Shown here: positions 39,343-48,132 of the stretch, piece by piece
Position numbering within the stretch: position 1 is the first letter of the stretch
Layout of the letters: the number at the start of each line of letters is the position of its first letter
NCBI GenBank assembly: GCA_015228925.1
Contig: JADGCQ010000014.1
Location: 1 to 50,047, forward strand
From: Magnetococcales bacterium
Lineage (GTDB): Bacteria; Pseudomonadota; Magnetococcia; Magnetococcales; UBA8363
DNA: 50,047 nucleotides
Direction of reading: 5' to 3'
Position numbers and translations under genes: made by a program
The notes under the pieces: generated by a model
Databases searched by the model: none
Seen by the model: only the letters and a program-made list of their open reading frames with translations
What the model was told of the DNA's origin: nothing

Positions 39343-40506
39343 CTATAAAAGGAAAATTTTTTCCATGATTCGTTGGTAGATTTGAGCCAGCATGGTCAAA
39401 TCATCGACCGGAGCCGATTCATCCACTTGGTGCATGGTGGCCCCTACCAAGCCCAGTTCGACGGTTTGTGGGCAGTGTTGGGAAATGAATCGGGCGTCAG
39501 AGGTGCCACCGCCCGTGGAAAGTTCCGGGGGCAGATGCAGGAGTTCTTCGATAGAAGTTTGAATGGCTTGTAGCAACGGGCCGCCTTGTGTCAAGAATGG
39601 CAGCCCTGATACCTGCATGACCAGATCGTAGCGGTAACCGTGCGGTATCAAAGGATCCAGAAGACCCCGAATCCGACTTTCGAGGGATTTGGGTGTGTGT
39701 TCGGTGGAAAAACGAATATTAAACTGAGCTGTGAGCTGCGCCGGGATGACATTGGTGGAACCGTCCCCAGATTGCATGCGTGTCAATTGAAAACTGGTGG
39801 GGGGAAAGTGGGGATTTTTGTTTTCATCAAATGGATGTTGTACCAGGGCTTCCAGGAGAGGTAGACTGGAATGGATGGGGTTGGCCGCCAAATGGGGATA
39901 GGCCACATGGCCTTGTCGGCCATGCAAGGTAATGGTGCCATTGACGGAACCACGGCGACCATTTTTCACACAATCCCCCAGCCTTTTGACGCTGGTAGGC
40001 TCGCCAACCAAGCAATAGTCCAGACGCTCGCCCTGGTTGGTACACCATTCCAGGATGCGAACGGTTCCATCTTCGGCACACCCCTCCTCATCGCCAGTAA
40101 TAAGAAAGGAAAGGCTATGGCGCAAAGGGAGATCGGGATGCACGGCTAATAGGTGTTCTACGGCCATGACCATGGCGGCAATGGCCCCTTTCATGTCACA
40201 AATGCCCCGACCCACAATCACCCCATCGTGATTTTCGGCACCAAATGGATCGCTACGCCATAAACCGGAATCGCCGCTTGGGGTGACATCTGTATGTCCG
40301 GCAAAACAAAAGTTGGTCCCACGATACCCCAGCCGGGCATAAAAATTATGGATTGGACCAACAATGATGGGATAAATGGTAAACCCCAGACGTTCCAGAT
40401 GTTGGATTAACAGACGTTGGCAACCACCATCCATTGGGGTGACGGATGGAATTTTGACCAACGCCCGCGCTAGTTTTTCTGCCAAAGTGGGGGTGTGTGA
40501 TGGCAT
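39343..40506 (-). CDS. dapE: Succinyl-diaminopimelate desuccinylase
   Basis: DapE removes the succinyl group to give LL-diaminopimelate for lysine and peptidoglycan synthesis. The M20-type dizinc site is complete: AGHTDVTPSGDSGLW, GRGICDMKGAIAAMV, TGDEEGCAEDGT, and a C-terminal MHQVDESAPVDDL. The start used (ATG at 40506, MPSHTPTLAEKLARAL) gives 387 aa; a GTG at 40518 would add four residues. It is the last gene of a minus-strand operon with dapD and dapC. Confidence 0.96.
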   Translation of the reverse strand: MPSHTPTLAEKLARALVKIPSVTPMDGGCQRLLIQHLERLGFTIYPIIVGPIHNFYARLGYRGTNFCFAGHTDVTPSGDSGLWRSDPFGAENHDGVIVGRGICDMKGAIAAMVMAVEHLLAVHPDLPLRHSLSFLITGDEEGCAEDGTVRILEWCTNQGERLDYCLVGEPTSVKRLGDCVKNGRRGSVNGTITLHGRQGHVAYPHLAANPIHSSLPLLEALVQHPFDENKNPHFPPTSFQLTRMQSGDGSTNVIPAQLTAQFNIRFSTEHTPKSLESRIRGLLDPLIPHGYRYDLVMQVSGLPFLTQGGPLLQAIQTSIEELLHLPPELSTGGGTSDARFISQHCPQTVELGLVGATMHQVDESAPVDDLTMLAQIYQRIMEKIFLL

Positions 40507-40532: not shown

Positions 40533-41384
40533 TCAGAACTCTCTCAGCAGTTCGTTAATCCCTGTTTTGGCCCGGGTTTGTGCATCGACCGTCTTGACGA
40601 TAACCGCGCAGTAGAGGTTGGGTCCCGCTTGACCGTTGGGCAAAGGTTTTCCAGGCATGGTCCCAGAGACAACGACCGAATAGGGGGGAACATAACCCAT
40701 ATGGACCTCGCCGGTTTCCCGATTGACAATGCGCGTGGAGGCACTCAAGAAAACACCCATGGAGAGGACGGCACCACGGCCAACAATGACCCCTTCGGCG
40801 ACCTCGGCACGGGCACCGATGAAACATTCATCTTCGATGATGACAGGGTTGGCTTGAAGCGGTTCCAGGACGCCGCCGATGCCGGTTCCACCGGAGATGT
40901 GGACGTTCTTGCCGATCTGCGCACAGGAACCCACGGTGGCCCAGGTATCGATCATGGTGCCGGAATCAACAAAAGCACCGATGTTGACAAACGAGGGCAT
41001 CAGAACGACGCCAGGGGCGATGTATGCGCCGGTACGGACCGTGGCTGTGGGGACCATGCGGAAACCATTTTCCCGGAAGCGGGTGTCGGACCAAGCAGCG
41101 GTTTTTAGGGGAACCTTGTCAAAATGATTTTGGGGACCGCTGGCAATCAGGGCGTTGTCGTGCAGTTTGAAATACAGCAAAACCGCTTTTTTCAACCATT
41201 GGTTGACAACCCAGCCATGAACCGCCTGGGGATGGTCGGGTTTGCATTCGGCGACGCGCAGATGACCAGCATCCATCTGTTCAAGGGTGGTGGTGACCGC
41301 CTTTTTGACTTTTGGCAAAAAATCGTTGGACAGGGTGTTACGTTCTTCCCAAGCTTTTTCAATGATCGTTTGATTGGTGGACAT
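40533..41384 (-). CDS. dapD: Tetrahydrodipicolinate N-succinyltransferase
   Basis: DapD transfers succinyl from succinyl-CoA to tetrahydrodipicolinate, the first step of the succinylase branch. The 283-aa protein shows the left-handed beta-helix with hexapeptide repeats (about residues 115-230) and the signature [20 protein letters not shown]. The ATG at 41384 has AAGGAAA upstream; longer in-frame starts to 41462 lack an obvious ribosome site. Located between dapC and dapE. Confidence 0.96.
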
Positions 41385-41499: not shown

Positions 41500-42696
41500 T
41501 CATCGAAGATCACGCACGGCGGCGGCAATCCGTTCAAAGGCTTCCCGATTTTCCTCTCGCGGTTGAACCATGGCGATACGGATGTAGGGGGCACCAGGGT
41601 TGTGATCTCCCTCACCCCGGCCCAGGTAAGCCCCTGGCAACACGGTGACATGATAGCGTTGAAACAGGTGGCGAGCAAAGGCTATCCCTCCCTGAGGAAC
41701 CTTGAGCCATAGATAAAATCCCGCTTGTGGTGGTTGAACGGGGAGTATCGGTTGGAGGATTGCCAAGGCGTCGGCAAGTTTTTGACGATAGAGGTTACGA
41801 TTGTCTTCGACGTGTACCTCATCGTTCCAGGCGGCTGTGGCTGCGGCCTGAATGAAAGGGGGGGTGGCGCATCCGGTGTAGGTGCGCAGGTGGAAATAGT
41901 GTTCGAGCAGATTGGCGTCTCCCGCGACGAAACCCGAACGCGCACCGGGCATATTGGACCGTTTGGACAGTGAGTGAAACACTAGGCAACGTTCAAACTT
42001 GGTGCGCCCCTGATCCTGGGCAACTTTGAGAAGACCAGGTGGTGGTTCCTGATACCAGATCTCGGAATAACATTCGTCGGCAGCGAGAATGAAATCATAG
42101 GTTTCGGCTAGATGGATAAGTTGTTTAAGTTTTGGTTCTGGGGTGACTGCCCCGGTTGGGTTGCTGGGGGAGCAGAGAAAAAGCAGTTTGGTCCGTGCAA
42201 GAATCTCTGGGGAAAGGGCTGCGTAGTCGGGTAAAAAACCGGTGTCTTGGGTAGCCGGGACGTGGATGGGTGTCGCCCCGGCCATGATGGTGGCCCCTTC
42301 ATAGATTTGGTAGAAGGGGTTGGGCATGAGTACCACGGCACCGTCATCTTTGGGTCCGACGACCGCCTGGGCGATGGAAAACAAAGCCTCGCGCGTCCCG
42401 TTGACGGGGAGGAGTTGGGTTTCGGGGTTGACCGAACCGGGTATGAGGGCAAAACGTCGTTCGAGCCAAAGAGAGGCCGCTTGTCGCAGACTGGCCTCAC
42501 CTCGTGTGGTCGGATAACGGCTGATACCGTCGAGCGATGCGGCCATCATCTCCCGAATCAGGCTGGCGACTGGATGCCGAGGTTCGCCGATGGAAAGATT
42601 TAAATGGTCATGGTCGGCTGCGGGGGTGATCCCTCTGAGGAGGGTATGGAGCTTCTCAAAAGGGTAGGGTTGTAGTTCATTGAGCAGGGTATTCAT
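41500..42696 (-). CDS. dapC: Succinyldiaminopimelate aminotransferase DapC
   Basis: This fold-type I PLP aminotransferase (398 aa) converts N-succinyl-2-amino-6-ketopimelate to succinyl-DAP. The PLP lysine is in FHSLSKRSNMPGARSGFV, and LNLSIGEPRHPVASLIREMM is typical of DapC; LFLCSPSNPTGAV is the cofactor-binding loop. The start ATG at 42696 (MNTLLNELQPYPFEKLHTLL) overlaps the stop of the preceding peptidase gene as ATGA. The track frame runs further upstream, but family length favours this start. Substrate is inferred from context and family. Confidence 0.93.
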   Translation of the reverse strand: MNTLLNELQPYPFEKLHTLLRGITPAADHDHLNLSIGEPRHPVASLIREMMAASLDGISRYPTTRGEASLRQAASLWLERRFALIPGSVNPETQLLPVNGTREALFSIAQAVVGPKDDGAVVLMPNPFYQIYEGATIMAGATPIHVPATQDTGFLPDYAALSPEILARTKLLFLCSPSNPTGAVTPEPKLKQLIHLAETYDFILAADECYSEIWYQEPPPGLLKVAQDQGRTKFERCLVFHSLSKRSNMPGARSGFVAGDANLLEHYFHLRTYTGCATPPFIQAAATAAWNDEVHVEDNRNLYRQKLADALAILQPILPVQPPQAGFYLWLKVPQGGIAFARHLFQRYHVTVLPGAYLGRGEGDHNPGAPYIRIAMVQPREENREAFERIAAAVRDLR

Positions 42697-43835
42697 TGTG
42701 GTAATGGCCTGGTTTTTAAATTTTTGGGGGAGGATTCGGTAGGAGTCCGTTGCCGGACATGGCCGGTAAGCCATTGGATCAGGTCCATCCAGATTGCTGA
42801 TATTTCCTGTTTTTCCGGCATAATGCCTGCCCGTTCCAATTCGATGGTTATGATGGGAACCTTGATGATATCACCACAATAACGACCGAGAGAACCGGGA
42901 TAGGTTCCCAGAAGGGAGAGATACAGTTTTCCCAATCTTTCGGGAGGGGCATTGGGTGGGCCATCAAAATCCAAGAGACCATAGGGGGCATGAATGGAAA
43001 TGACGGCATCGGGTTTAAATGTGGCGATCTCCTCGGCGATCCATAGGGATTCTGGTTCGCTCAGAGGTGCGGGTCCGGGATAACGCCTGGGGTCGCGGTG
43101 GGTTTCATTGATCCAATAATCTTGACTTGCTTGCAGCCATTCATCCTGGGTGGGAGAGGTGGGAAAATTTCGGTTCAAATCGACATGATGGGCATTGGTA
43201 CGTTGGGAATCTTTTTGCAGCAATCCGTCGGGGTTTACGAGTGGAACAACATGCCAATGGAACATGCCGGAGTGAAATTTATTGAGTATTTCCATCCATC
43301 TAAAAACAATGCTAATGGCAGAATACTCATCGCCGTGGATGCCGCCCAGAAGCAAAATGCGGGCTTGAGTTTCCCGGTTGGGCAACGGGGGATACTCCTT
43401 GATCAGGATTGGAATGCCATTGACCGAGGAGCCGCTGGATACGGTCAAGCGATGTGCCAGACAATCGGCAGCACTGACACTACCCAATTTATCGCCGATG
43501 AGGGCGCAGGTTTGCTCCATGGTGCGTATTTCTTTTGCGGGTGATGTCGGGCCAGGGAGGGGGGGAGGGGTGGATGATTCTGGTGTTGACGGAGCGGGGG
43601 CCGGATTATTGACGCTTGGTGCTGCGACGGCATCGTTCGCTGTTTTCTTGACGATCTCGTGGACGGCATCCAACATCTCGGAGCGGTCTTTATCGTGGGA
43701 ATTCAGGGGTTGTGCATGGGAATCGTTGGGAAAAATAACGGTAATAAAAAAGCTTATGAGGAAAAAAAAGGTACCGGAGGCCATTTTTTGCAAGTGAACG
43801 CATTTTAATGAAATGAATGGGTATGGTTTGTGCAT
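42693..43835 (-). CDS. Exported M14-family zinc carboxypeptidase, candidate murein peptide amidase
   Basis: The protein (up to 380 aa) has a hydrophobic signal region (FFFLISFFITVIF, ending near SHAQ) and a proline-rich linker with PAPAPSTPESSTPPPLPGPT. The catalytic domain starts near residue 110. Zinc and catalytic residues of the M14 family are visible: GGIHGDE (His and Glu ligands), NPDG, LNRNFP, ISIHAP (third ligand) and the catalytic Glu in ITIELERAG. Related enzymes such as MpaA cut the gamma-D-Glu-DAP bond of murein peptides. The gene is first in the operon and its TGA overlaps the dapC ATG. No good ribosome site is seen; the ATGs at 43835 or 43784 are alternatives. Confidence 0.85.
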   Translation of the reverse strand: MHKPYPFISLKCVHLQKMASGTFFFLISFFITVIFPNDSHAQPLNSHDKDRSEMLDAVHEIVKKTANDAVAAPSVNNPAPAPSTPESSTPPPLPGPTSPAKEIRTMEQTCALIGDKLGSVSAADCLAHRLTVSSGSSVNGIPILIKEYPPLPNRETQARILLLGGIHGDEYSAISIVFRWMEILNKFHSGMFHWHVVPLVNPDGLLQKDSQRTNAHHVDLNRNFPTSPTQDEWLQASQDYWINETHRDPRRYPGPAPLSEPESLWIAEEIATFKPDAVISIHAPYGLLDFDGPPNAPPERLGKLYLSLLGTYPGSLGRYCGDIIKVPIITIELERAGIMPEKQEISAIWMDLIQWLTGHVRQRTPTESSPKNLKTRPLPQ

Positions 43836-44185
43836 TGGTCACGTTTAACGTTGCTTGAAGCGTCAGTTGGTGCCGATTCAACGGCAGGACAACCGGCAGG
43901 ATAGCGCACGGGGGTGACGATTGGATCATCCCATGCTCCGGGGTCTCTGACTGATGATCACTCAAACAGTCGTTTTTACTTCAGTATGGGGATAGCGTCA
44001 ATCACCCTTCATCGATTGACGGTTGCGGATGATGCTTAGATTGGGGTGGCGCGATAACGTTTTCAAGGGCTTCGTTTGAGGCGTTTGTTTAGCTTTAGCC
44101 CCCTGCGCGGGGTGGTTCGGTTTTGACCGATAAGGTGAAGACCGGTTCTTGGATGGTTTTCACCATGGACACTCAGGGTTCGAAA
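43836..44185. other. Divergent intergenic region with an 8-bp inverted repeat
   Basis: No gene was found in these 350 bases between the divergent M14 and M15 peptidase genes. CGTCAATC (43996-44003) and GATTGACG (44014-44021) are a perfect inverted repeat with a 10-base spacer. The right arm includes TTGACG, a possible -35 box on the plus strand, but no good -10 box follows. The symmetry could be an operator or a hairpin. In-frame starts at 44123 and 44165 would extend the downstream gene into this region. Confidence 0.4.
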
Positions 44186-45046
44186 ATGAACAGACGAGAT
44201 TTTCTTAAAGTAGCCACGGTGGGGTCCGCCCTGGGTTTGGTGACGGTAGCGCAATCGACCTCTGCGGCGGTCGCCGGATTTCCGATACCTCAGGTTCGTC
44301 CCAAGTTCAGGGATGAGGATCTGGATGACTACCTTCAGAAGGTACGCCAGTTTGATGAGGACCATGTGGGGGATGTCTATTTCGATGAATATAACTGGGG
44401 GTTGCTGAAGTCTTCGCTGGAACGGTTTGTTCGGATGCAACGGGTTGTGGGTCATGGTAATTTTTATTTGTTGGACTTCGATGATGCATTGCAGTTGGCA
44501 AAAACCTATCCCAGTGTCGGTGCGTTCACGACGCCGGAGCTGAATTTTTTGGAGACGTTGTTTTATGAGCAGGCTGCCATTTATGGTTTTTATGGTGAGA
44601 AGCCTTTGAAAAATCTGACGGATCGCATCCCGTTACGTGAAGTGGTCAAGGTTCCCGATAGCGGCAATTATCTCTATCGTGGAAAACCGATGGAGACCTT
44701 TGAGGCCATCAGAAAAATCTTAGGGCCGGAGGTGATCTTGACATCGGGCGTTCGGAGCGTCATCAAGCAGTTCTATCTGTTTCTCAACAAGGCCTATGTC
44801 AGCGGTGGCAATTTGTCCCGTGCCTCCAGATCGTTGGCACCTCCGGGGTATTCGTTTCACGGGATCAGTGATTTTGATGTGGGTCAAGCCGGTTTTGGCC
44901 AGCATAACTTTACCGAACGGTTTGTCACCTCCAATGTGTATAAAACACTGAGGGGCCTTGGCTATTTGACGCTCAGGTATCCGCGAGACAACCTCCTCGG
45001 GGTCCGTTTTGAGCCATGGCACATTAAAGTTGGAACCCGCGTTTAA
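44186..45046 (+). CDS. Tat-exported M15-family peptidase (VanY-like D,D-carboxypeptidase)
   Basis: The protein starts MNRRDFLKVATVGSALGLV, a twin-arginine signal, so it is exported folded. The C-terminal half carries the M15 zinc site: SGVRSVIKQF, PPGYSFHGISDFDVG with a His and Asp ligand, and LGVRFEPWHIKV with the catalytic Glu and the last His. Such enzymes cleave D-Ala-D-Ala or related cell-wall peptides. The ATG at 44186 is the most typical start for a Tat protein; ATGs at 44153 and 44165 are also in frame. It lies opposite the M14 peptidase-dap operon, which suggests a cell-wall module. folK overlaps or abuts its end. Confidence 0.85.
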   Translation: MNRRDFLKVATVGSALGLVTVAQSTSAAVAGFPIPQVRPKFRDEDLDDYLQKVRQFDEDHVGDVYFDEYNWGLLKSSLERFVRMQRVVGHGNFYLLDFDDALQLAKTYPSVGAFTTPELNFLETLFYEQAAIYGFYGEKPLKNLTDRIPLREVVKVPDSGNYLYRGKPMETFEAIRKILGPEVILTSGVRSVIKQFYLFLNKAYVSGGNLSRASRSLAPPGYSFHGISDFDVGQAGFGQHNFTERFVTSNVYKTLRGLGYLTLRYPRDNLLGVRFEPWHIKVGTRV

Positions 45047-45053
45047 AAAGGAT

Positions 45054-45614
45054 ATGGGCGTGGGTATCGGGGGGGAGGCTGTGGCCTGGATCGGAATCGG
45101 CAGTAATCTGGGTTCGCCACTACGTCGGTGTCGGGATTTGGTTGCCTCTTTGAGTCGGCATCCCCGCTGGCGTTTGTTGGATGTTTCTTCCTGTTATCGG
45201 ACCCAACCATTGGGTATGCGGCACCAGCCTTGGTTTATCAATGCGGTGGTACGGATATCGACCCGATTGCCCCCGTTGGCCCTGTTGCGCGATCTTCAAC
45301 GTTTGGAAATACGTTTTGGCCGTGATCGCCGCCGAGAGGTGAAAAATGGCCCTCGGTCCATGGATTTGGACCTGCTGTTGTATGATCGGCGCAGACTGCG
45401 CCATCCCCTGCTGACATTACCGCATCCTGGTATCGCCCACCGCCGGTTTGTCCTGATTCCGTTGGCCGAGATTTCTCCCTTGCTCCTGCATCCCGTGCTT
45501 GGTAAAACCATTGACTTGTTGCTCAGAGAAACCGATGATGTCTCCCGTGTGGAGCGGGTAGCTCCCTGCCGGGAACGGAGTAAACGTGCGCAAACCGCAA
45601 CGCCGACGCTTTAG
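45054..45614 (+). CDS. folK: 2-amino-4-hydroxy-6-hydroxymethyldihydropteridine pyrophosphokinase
   Basis: HPPK transfers pyrophosphate from ATP in folate synthesis. The 186-aa protein has AWIGIGSNLGSPLRRC at the start and the signature GRDRRREVKNGPRSMDLDLL, with the magnesium-binding Asp pair in MDLDLLLYD. The ATG at 45054 follows AAAAGGAT, eight bases after the preceding stop; the frame is open to 45009 but that overlaps the peptidase gene. It is followed by panB; the folate product is the methyl source for PanB. Confidence 0.93.
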   Translation: MGVGIGGEAVAWIGIGSNLGSPLRRCRDLVASLSRHPRWRLLDVSSCYRTQPLGMRHQPWFINAVVRISTRLPPLALLRDLQRLEIRFGRDRRREVKNGPRSMDLDLLLYDRRRLRHPLLTLPHPGIAHRRFVLIPLAEISPLLLHPVLGKTIDLLLRETDDVSRVERVAPCRERSKRAQTATPTL

Positions 45615-45802
45615 GTTGTGACCTTCGCTGCGATTGTAAGGGTGCGTTGTTTTCCTCGGTGTCGGTTCTTTTTTTGTCTGTCGTAATGGACGGCTGACTG
45701 TGACGGCCTGGATCCTCCGCTTGAACCAAGTCGGGACTGGGACTGGAAAACATGATCCTGAATTTATATACATCCCGCTTTGCTTGTTTTTCCCATATCG
45801 AT

Positions 45803-45866
45803 GGCGTTTCCTTTCGATGTGTCGGTTTTTTGTTGCGGCCCCTGCTTTTTCTTTTTGGGAAACGCC
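45803..45866 (+). promoter_or_regulatory. Long-range inverted repeat abutting the panB start
   Basis: GGCGTTTCC at 45803-45811 is the exact reverse complement of GGAAACGCC at 45858-45866, with about 46 bases between. The right arm covers the stretch directly before the panB ATG at 45868. If it folds, the ribosome site would be masked. It is an RNA-structure inference; no known riboswitch was recognised. Confidence 0.4.
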
Positions 45867-45867
45867 C

Positions 45868-46671
45868 ATGCCATCGCGTCTGACTGTTCTCGATTTTCCC
45901 CGCCTTAAAGCGGAAAAGCGGCCCATCGTCTGTGTGACCGCGTATGATTATACCATGGCTCGGTTGCTTGATGAGGCGGGAGTCGATATGCTGCTTGTCG
46001 GTGATTCCCTGGGCATGGTGGTTCAAGGGCACGATACAACGTTGCCGGTGACTTTGGATCAGATGATCTACCATACGCAGGCGGTGGTCCGCGGTTCAGA
46101 AAAAGCGTTTGTCGCTTGCGATCTTCCCTTTGGTCTTTGTCACCGTTCCTCGGATGTGGTATTGGAAGCGGCTATTCGGGTTATCAAGGAGTCGGGGGCG
46201 CAGGCGGTCAAGGTGGAAGGGGGGGTGCCGGTGGCCCAGACGATCCAGGCGTTGACGACCCGGCATATTCCGGTTTTGGGACATGTGGGGCTGACGCCGC
46301 AGTCAGTGCATGCATTTGGTGGTTTTAAGGTTCAGGGACGCGGCGCAGCCGCCGATAGAGTGTTGGCCGATGCTGTGGCCATCGAGGAGGCGGGGGCCTT
46401 TGCGGTGGTGTTGGAGGGGATTCCAGCCCGGTTGTCCGAAAAGATCAGTGCCCGATTGACCATCCCCACCATTGGGATTGGTGCTGGTCCCGGGTGCGAT
46501 GGGCAGGTGTTGGTGGTTTATGACCTACTGGGCCTTTACGATGGGGTGAAGCCTCGGTTTGTCAAACGGTACATGGATGGCAGTGTGTTGGTTCGTCAGG
46601 CGGTCGGCCACTTTGCTGAGGAGGTCAGAAACGGATCTTTTCCGGGTGAGGAACATAGTTTTTCCGAGTAG
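45868..46671 (+). CDS. panB: 3-methyl-2-oxobutanoate hydroxymethyltransferase
   Basis: PanB makes ketopantoate from ketoisovalerate and 5,10-methylene-THF, the first committed step toward pantothenate and CoA. The 267-aa TIM-barrel protein has VTAYDYTMARLLDEAGVDML, VGDSLGMVVQGHDTTLPVTL with the magnesium Asp, AVKVEGG, and HVGLTPQSVHAFGGFK. The ATG at 45868 (MPSRLTVLDF) gives normal length; the frame is open to 45700, but that stretch is not PanB-like. The ribosome site is weak (TTGGGA) and lies within the inverted repeat. panC follows after three bases. Confidence 0.95.
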   Translation: MPSRLTVLDFPRLKAEKRPIVCVTAYDYTMARLLDEAGVDMLLVGDSLGMVVQGHDTTLPVTLDQMIYHTQAVVRGSEKAFVACDLPFGLCHRSSDVVLEAAIRVIKESGAQAVKVEGGVPVAQTIQALTTRHIPVLGHVGLTPQSVHAFGGFKVQGRGAAADRVLADAVAIEEAGAFAVVLEGIPARLSEKISARLTIPTIGIGAGPGCDGQVLVVYDLLGLYDGVKPRFVKRYMDGSVLVRQAVGHFAEEVRNGSFPGEEHSFSE

Positions 46672-46704
46672 GGGTTGAAATTTCAGGTTGAGAAGGGTTT
46701 CGTC

Positions 46705-47580
46705 ATGGTTTCTCAGGGAAGTGAGATGGTCACATTGACCGATCGGGCCGCCATGCATGCATGGTCTATGGAGCAGCGTCAGGAGGGGAGGCGTATCGGG
46801 TTTGTCCCGACGATGGGGGCGTTGCACGCGGGGCATCTGCACCTTGTCAAGCAGAGCTTGGCCCAGACGGATCGCACAGTGGTCTCTATTTTTGTGAATC
46901 CATCCCAGTTCGGGCCGAAAGAAGATTTTGACCGTTATCCGCGAGTCCCCGAAGCGGACCGGGAAATGTTGGCGCAGGTGGGATGTCATGCCTTATTCTA
47001 TCCCGATGTGGCATCGGTTTACCCCGAAGGCTTTCAGACGACGGTGGCGGTGGAACCGTTGGGGTCGGAGCTTTGTGGGCGCGAACGTCCGGGGCATTTT
47101 CAAGGGGTCGCTACGGTCGTGACGGTGTTGTTCAACCTTGTGAAACCGGATAAGGCATTTTTTGGGTTAAAAGATTATCAGCAATTTGTTATCATCCGCC
47201 GGTTGGTCCGTGATTTGGGTATGGATGTCGTGGTTGTCGGTGTTCCGACGGTGCGTGAAGCGGATGGTTTGGCCATGTCCAGCCGTAATCGCTATCTGAC
47301 GGGTGAAGATCGAACACGGGCGGTTGCGATTCACAGGGCCATAGGGGCGGCAAAAACGGCGTTTGAAGCGGGGGAAAAAGGTTCGGCACGGCTGGAAGCG
47401 ATTGCCCGCCGTATCTTGATTGATGCCGGAATTCATCGTATCCAATATCTTTCAGTCCGTTCGGCGGATACGTTGATGCCGATGAAGATGATCATGACGG
47501 ATGGCGTTATTCTCACGGCGGTCAAGGTGGGGGCAACTCGTTTGATCGATAACGTGTTGTTGACTGGATCGCCATCATGA
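46705..47580 (+). CDS. panC: Pantothenate synthetase (pantoate-beta-alanine ligase)
   Basis: PanC joins pantoate and beta-alanine at the cost of ATP. The nucleotidyltransferase signature PTMGALHAGHLHLVKQSLAQ (HxGH) and the SSRNRYL loop (KMSKS-like) are present, as is FFGLKDYQQ. The ATG at 46705 was chosen with AAGGG upstream; ATG at 46726 (MVTLTDRAAMHAW) is also possible and the frame starts at 46675. About 291 aa. panD, which supplies beta-alanine, lies 170 bases downstream. Confidence 0.95.
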   Translation: MVSQGSEMVTLTDRAAMHAWSMEQRQEGRRIGFVPTMGALHAGHLHLVKQSLAQTDRTVVSIFVNPSQFGPKEDFDRYPRVPEADREMLAQVGCHALFYPDVASVYPEGFQTTVAVEPLGSELCGRERPGHFQGVATVVTVLFNLVKPDKAFFGLKDYQQFVIIRRLVRDLGMDVVVVGVPTVREADGLAMSSRNRYLTGEDRTRAVAIHRAIGAAKTAFEAGEKGSARLEAIARRILIDAGIHRIQYLSVRSADTLMPMKMIMTDGVILTAVKVGATRLIDNVLLTGSPS

Positions 47581-47751
47581 CGACTCTCCCCTGGCACTGG
47601 GGCCGGGGTCATTGAAAAATGGTATTTTGTAGGCGTTTTTTGGTTTGGAGGGATGACACTGCCAGGGAAGTTCGCCTTCGTGCGGCAGGTCTTTAGAGGT
47701 ACAAAGGTCCAAAGCGGTCAAACATCAGCCATGAGAAAGGACTGGGTGGTA

Positions 47752-48132
47752 ATGGAAGTTTCCTTATTGAAATGCAAGCTTCACCGGGTGAAGGTGACCG
47801 AGTCTCATTTGGATTACGAAGGTTCTTGCGCCATTGATGAAAATCTTATGGAGGCTTCCGGGATCCGCGAATATGAACAAATTCACCTGTGGAATGTGGC
47901 CAACGGTGAACGATTCATCACCTATGCCATTCGCGGTGAGCGTGGTAGTGGGATGATTTCGGTGAATGGTGCTGCGGCGCATAAGGCGAGTCCCGGTGAT
48001 ATCATGATCATTGCCGCCTTTGTGCATATGAGTGAGGCGCAGGCGGATCGTTTTGAACCTAAGCTGATTTATGTCGATAACAACAACCGGATTGTCCGTA
48101 TCGGTCATACCGTTCCGGCTCAAGCCGCTTGA
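47752..48132 (+). CDS. panD: Aspartate 1-decarboxylase
   Basis: PanD makes beta-alanine and is a pyruvoyl enzyme formed by self-cleavage between Gly24 and Ser25. With the ATG at 47752 ([20 protein letters not shown]) the motif YEGSCAID places the Gly24-Ser25 pair exactly, and the length of 126 aa is standard. The frame is open back to 47653, but the extra stretch is not PanD-like. With panB and panC it completes the beta-alanine branch; the ketopantoate reductase panE is not in the window. Confidence 0.95.

Follow-up and report, generated by a model that had tools for sequence, protein, structure and literature searches.

A secreted-type M14 peptidase gene joined to dapC and dapD in Magnetococcales

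A gene for a secreted-type zinc peptidase of family M14 is linked to the diaminopimelate (DAP) synthesis genes dapC and dapD. The linkage is real and, among the best 80 of 295 loci kept in this survey, confined to Magnetococcales. It was followed from a window of 50,047 nucleotides (contig JADGCQ010000014.1), which is the whole stretch of DNA analysed here. The encoded protein is probably a secreted, MpaA-related zinc D,L-carboxypeptidase of peptidoglycan stem peptides, which would act after an L,D-carboxypeptidase and be co-expressed with dapC and dapD.

The M14 gene and the dap cluster

The M14 gene (42693–43835, minus strand) is an ORF of 380 aa with an ATG start. It is followed on the same strand by dapC (succinyldiaminopimelate transaminase, 41500–42696; TIGR03538, 551 bits, cut-off 474.6), dapD (tetrahydrodipicolinate N-succinyltransferase, 40533–41384; TIGR00965, 400 bits, cut-off 375.4) and dapE (succinyl-diaminopimelate desuccinylase, 39343–40506; TIGR01246, 434 bits, cut-off 361.8). 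The initial annotation of this DNA had placed the peptidase at the head of a dapC-dapD-dapE operon with its stop codon overlapping the dapC start, and both points are borne out, as all four genes share one strand, the dap genes pass their NCBIfam cut-offs, and the minus strand at 42696–42693 reads ATGA, joining the dapC ATG to the M14 TGA. Translational coupling of the two genes is plausible because of this 4-base overlap. The remaining gaps in the window are 115 bp (dapC-dapD) and 26 bp (dapD-dapE).

Among 61 genomes searched, M14 matches were found in 44 of 48 Magnetococcales and in one of 13 others, some of the matches being fragments at contig ends. The stretches around the matches were searched for the genes of the window; start codons in relatives were set by position relative to the window proteins, and many of the genomes are fragmented. 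dapC lies within 20 bp of M14 in 39 of the 42 Magnetococcales loci readable downstream, a count that leaves out four loci ending inside M14 (L045–L048) and one from outside the order (L036). The 39 pairs, window included, are all spaced by 20 bp or less, 35 of them by 10 bp or less, and 29 have the −4 junction. dapC is missing after M14 in three Magnetococcales loci with at least 208 bp to read on that side (L042, L072 and L073), the last being a second M14 copy in its genome (G008).

The other joints are looser. Spacing between dapC and dapD is below 200 bp in 30 of 34 pairs and −4 in two. The dapD-dapE interval could be measured in 21 loci (14 below 200 bp, two with the genes on opposite strands), and nine further loci show no dapE in at least 1.2 kb after dapD, so that just 14 of the 30 loci that could be read have dapE less than 200 bp after dapD. 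By these counts no joint of the cluster is tighter than M14-dapC, which is common to many Magnetococcales families, and dapE is a loosely attached part. Of the gene order whose conservation the initial annotation proposed to survey, M14-dapC-dapD is conserved, but dapE is not a regular member. One Magnetococcales genome estimated at 96% completeness (G016) gave no match to M14, no VanY-like gene and no close match to dapC. In that single genome dapD (L189, contig C42) lies beside genes that resemble pyrRBC by eye.

The M14 protein scores 46 bits against Peptidase_M14 (PF00246; cut-off 21.6) in the Pfam scan and also matches AstE_AspA_cat. It is the sole match in its genome to PF00246 at E 0.001. 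H167, E170, H282, R212, N221, R222 and E332 are the same in all 95 homologues aligned, and the pattern HxxE...H plus a catalytic Glu is present as H167, E170, H282 and E332, residues whose roles we take to be those of zinc ligands and catalytic Glu in other M14 enzymes. The assignment also draws on passages of a paper on Csd4 (PMC4220969). A Cys pair (C110/C125) is likewise invariant in all 95 homologues, which suits an oxidising compartment.

The N-terminal segment (residues 1–41; 43713–43835, minus strand) is signal-peptide-like, with a hydrophobic stretch at residues 19–35 followed by SHA/QP, which resembles a signal peptidase site. Such a hydrophobic stretch occurs, by a threshold of our own, in 87 of the 93 homologues with enough N-terminus, and secretion to the periplasm is predicted. 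The linker between this segment and the catalytic domain (43509–43712) is highly variable among relatives. The M14 ORFs chosen have lengths of 275 to 545 aa, with contig ends truncating the shortest.

In sequence searches the nearest solved relatives are structures of the murein tripeptide amidase MpaA (4axv and 5hxd; E 2e-14 with the single sequence and 2e-22 with a profile). Among curated families MpaA (NF007897) again comes closest, with 79.6 bits against an equivalog cut-off of 157. The structure model has a mean pLDDT of 70, with values below 50 at residues 286–297 and 306–314 (the flap), and superposes on M14 carboxypeptidases with a best Z of 16.8 (rmsd 3.5 over 222 residues). Fold searches with this model rank general carboxypeptidases above MpaA, whose structures 4axv and 5hxd come at ranks 44 and 48. 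This ranking and the AstE_AspA_cat match would suit an enzyme that acts as a carboxypeptidase on ordinary peptides, or on an unrelated amide, and that lies near wall genes by accident. We give that account little credence, since MpaA comes first in the sequence searches and homologues repeatedly adjoin wall carboxypeptidase genes. Murein is the best-supported candidate substrate, because homologues neighbour both Csd6-type and VanY-type wall carboxypeptidases, as described below.

The divergent M15 gene and the intergenic region

Divergent from M14 lies a gene for an M15 VanY-like carboxypeptidase (44186–45046, plus strand), which scores 38.7 bits against VanY (PF02557; cut-off 25) and has a Tat-like leader (RRDFLK). 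A structure model of this protein was poor and gave no usable fold match. The VanY-like gene is divergent from M14 in all 34 resolved loci, with start codons, as chosen, 102–575 bp apart, and a VanY-like profile match is present in 42 of 48 Magnetococcales genomes. It is about as conserved as dapC, and as informative. Strict co-dependence of the two genes was considered and does not hold: two genomes (G010 and G021) carry M14-dapC without a VanY-like gene. In another genome (G017) M14 is unlinked from dapC and the VanY-like gene is absent, and a 65% complete genome (G034) has a VanY-like gene and no M14 match.

A paralogue of the VanY-like gene, about 49% identical and likewise with an MNRR leader, occurs on another contig of the same genome (G000 contig C145; L182 6424–7275). 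In the window folK, panB, panC and panD come after the VanY-like gene (44186–48132 in all), an order found repeatedly in the Magnetococcales loci that were read, in many cases together with a TPR gene.

The divergent region contains a block conserved in an alignment of five genus members, and within it a promoter-like element, TTGACG-N17-TAAAAA, directed towards M14 (43973–44001, minus strand). Of 35 divergent regions, 18 have the pattern TTGACN-N16..18-TANNN(A/T) towards M14, against an expectation of 0.8 from dinucleotide shuffles, and none has it towards VanY; the pattern was picked after viewing the five-sequence alignment, and with those five sequences set aside it is present in 13 of 30 regions. 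A generic promoter scan called no promoter, the TTGACG-N17-TAAAAA element included. The element supports the view that M14 is the promoter-proximal gene of the cluster.

Homologues outside Magnetococcales

A scan of named genomes, from which the best 80 of 295 loci were kept, gave 54 loci outside Magnetococcales, mostly from Gammaproteobacteria and Zetaproteobacteria, with some from Acidobacteriota, one from a Deltaproteobacterium and others from unassigned Proteobacteria. None of these 54 carries dapC, dapD or dapE in the flanks, which spanned up to 8 kb on each side and were much shorter in several cases. The pairing of an M14 peptidase with DAP synthesis, to which the initial annotation had drawn attention, therefore holds within Magnetococcales (39 of 42 loci) but in none of the 54 loci elsewhere among the best 80 of 295.

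Neighbouring ORFs were clustered and adjacency was checked in 53 loci, L123 being dropped as its M14 ORF was not picked. Among these loci (from the best 80 of 295), the gene next to M14 encodes the C-terminal domain of Csd6 (Cds6_C) in at least 33 of 53, a lower bound because greedy ORF choice can hide neighbours. The 33 adjacent proteins all belong to one ORF cluster; 28 are of the Csd6 type, with YkuD and Cds6_C in one protein, and five have SPOR. The SPOR-bearing five are taken to be those of the Mariprofundus-type loci (L132, L139, L157, L167 and L169), from a domain scan of L139 and low identities. These Zetaproteobacterial neighbours, having SPOR and no YkuD, would by domain content not be L,D-carboxypeptidases. 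A second cluster member comes next in 26 of the 33 loci, and the one scanned (L166) has TPR plus Cds6_C.

The M14 and Cds6_C genes are convergent in 26 of the 33 loci and in tandem in seven. In 18 of the 33 loci the 3' ends of the convergent genes share 19 or 22 bp (e.g., L166 8652–8673). The flanks of the pair vary (recG and ubiA in L166, argC in L110), so the pair is not one copied block. In two Acidobacteriota loci M14 lies by a VanY-like gene, in tandem in L141 and divergent in L158.

The genome of the window also carries a TPR-Cds6_C gene and, next after it, a YkuD gene, away from the M14 contig (G000 contig C218; L181 3023–5312). For Cds6_C the YkuD gene scores a borderline 25.5 bits against a cut-off of 27, and the pair is the same as that adjoining M14 in Gammaproteobacteria. 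The idea that the M15 enzyme simply replaces Csd6 in Magnetococcales was rejected, as Cds6_C proteins are encoded elsewhere in 44 of 48 genomes of the order.

A quick tree was built from 95 M14 sequences. Its 42 Magnetococcales rows need three label changes; a single Magnetococcales clade is not rejected (AU p 0.56), and fine placement is made uncertain by long branches (L042, L073, L032 and the f4 pair). Such a clade, the restriction of the linkage to one order among the best 80 of 295 loci, and the conservation on the other side of pan and folK genes without a wall role would all be expected of a lineage-specific operon without functional coupling, in which M14 was fixed ancestrally before dapC and kept there by inheritance and loss of a separate dapC promoter. 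This account is somewhat unlikely; against it, the M14-dapC joint is tighter than either dapC-dapD or dapD-dapE in the same loci.

Proposed function and comparison with known systems

In the reading preferred here, a periplasmic L,D-carboxypeptidase would trim the tetrapeptide to the tripeptide, this being the M15 VanY-like enzyme, with a putative L,D specificity, and/or the Csd6-like protein encoded elsewhere in the genome. The M14 protein, a predicted periplasmic D,L-carboxypeptidase related to MpaA by sequence, would next cleave the gamma-D-Glu-meso-DAP bond, converting the tripeptide to the dipeptide and releasing meso-DAP, and the stem left would lack the DAP needed for cross-linking. As the promoter-proximal gene of the dapC-dapD cluster in Magnetococcales, M14 would be expressed together with DAP supply, and coupling wall trimming to that supply is the probable purpose of the cluster.

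An M14 gene beside a Csd6-type gene is best read as encoding the next step of a cascade, as Csd6 yields the tripeptide that Csd4 cuts. Pgp2 reportedly provides the substrate for Pgp1, going by the title of a 2014 paper. Excerpts of published work state that Csd6 converts the muramyl tetrapeptide to the tripeptide, leaves the pentapeptide untouched and has no cross-linking activity (PMC4599014), and that Csd4 cuts the tripeptide, and not the tetrapeptide, to the dipeptide and meso-DAP (PMC3310797, PMC4220969). In one such excerpt, the Csd4 authors suggest that dipeptide formation may block cross-linking in places (PMC3310797). As a counter-point to the cascade, 20 of the 53 non-Magnetococcales loci (best 80 of 295) have no Cds6_C neighbour by our choice of ORFs.

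The tripeptide might otherwise be the object of DAP salvage. An MpaA-like M14 enzyme would degrade free, shed tripeptide outside the cytoplasm, meso-DAP would be taken up and reused, and the operon would balance salvage against synthesis. MpaA is the closest relative by sequence, the title of an MpaA PDB entry mentions a scavenging pathway, and in Magnetococcales M14 shares an operon with DAP synthesis. Salvage is nevertheless unlikely, as neighbours outside Magnetococcales (best 80 of 295 loci) are of sacculus-trimming types rather than genes for transport or uptake. Furthermore, Mpl, which reuses intact tripeptide, scores above its cut-off in the genome of the window and in 44 of 48 genomes, so the tripeptide need not be broken for reuse. 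A search for LdcA (S66; PF02016) gave no match in the fragmented genome of the window, and 6 of 14 control genomes match. If LdcA is truly missing, the tripeptide would come from other L,D-carboxypeptidases, such as the M15 VanY-like and Csd6-like proteins.

Work on the shortening of stem peptides to dipeptides has centred on its part in helical cell shape in Helicobacter and Campylobacter. The M14 branch described here is another one, and its gene order ties it to Csd6-type genes elsewhere and to DAP synthesis in cocci, ties that suggest a broader role, for example in limiting cross-link acceptors or balancing DAP, and such a role is directly accessible to muropeptide analysis. It can tentatively be proposed, as a possibility rather than an expectation, that Csd6-type enzymes in Gammaproteobacteria and Acidobacteriota widely hand their product on to a secreted D,L-carboxypeptidase that derives from MpaA and is not a Csd4. 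In magnetotactic cocci the adjacent place would go to an M15 enzyme, and one promoter and an overlapping junction would wire the M14 enzyme to DAP synthesis, setting together the removal of DAP from old wall and its production for new wall. In the titles and abstract openings of open-licence literature, no description was found of a dap-linked M14 arrangement or of the M14/Csd6-type pairing.

The architecture of Csd6, Pgp2 and Bd1075 (YkuD plus an NTF2-like domain) is that of 28 of the 33 adjacent genes outside the order, and one gene elsewhere in the genome of the window resembles it with a borderline NTF2 score. In Magnetococcales, however, Csd6-type genes are not adjacent to M14, and the neighbour in the window encodes the M15 enzyme. 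The latter shares the Pfam VanY domain with LdcB and VanY and gives weak profile matches to 4mur, 4mph and 4jid (E 7e-4 to 7e-3), but it belongs to a family of its own, in which the N-terminal half is conserved.

The peptidase, a member of the M14 family, probably works like Csd4. It has in common with Csd4 and Pgp1 the M14 fold family, predicted export, the expected tripeptide to dipeptide cut and a putative functional link to Csd6/Pgp2. By their order along the chain, the invariant R212 and N221-R222 are candidate counterparts of the Arg that binds the scissile carbonyl in Csd4 and of the Asn-Arg that bind the C-terminal carboxylate. The initial annotation had compared the protein with murein enzymes of the MpaA and Csd4 class; the relation to MpaA is supported and the catalytic residues are intact, but the likeness to Csd4 does not extend to motif or architecture. 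Passages on Csd4 (PMC4220969) describe a QxxE motif and a carboxypeptidase domain with beta-barrel and Ig-like domains, whereas the M14 protein has HxxE, with H167 in 95 of 95 homologues, and one catalytic domain, only about 25 residues lying beyond its last helix. The sequence match to Csd4 (4wcm) is not significant (E 0.9).

The same differences bear on a cell-shape determinant of the Csd4/Pgp1 kind, for which the predicted chemistry is the same, and homologues adjoin Csd6-type genes, whose relatives are described as setting shape in Helicobacter, Campylobacter and Bdellovibrio. Since the protein fails both the motif and the three-domain comparison with Csd4, and Magnetococcales are described as cocci (for the order, not this organism itself), this explanation is very improbable, and the role in curvature raised initially was ranked low.

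The stretches HGDE, DLNR-F, RD-x-G-x-SEPE and PGS-x-G are common to MpaA and the M14 protein in the alignments, but the M14 protein stands apart by an N-terminus of the secreted type, a long linker and the invariant Cys pair. The MpaA of E. coli is a cytoplasmic protein. By sequence the M14 protein is close to MpaA yet below the equivalog threshold, and neither motif nor domain count would make it a Csd4.
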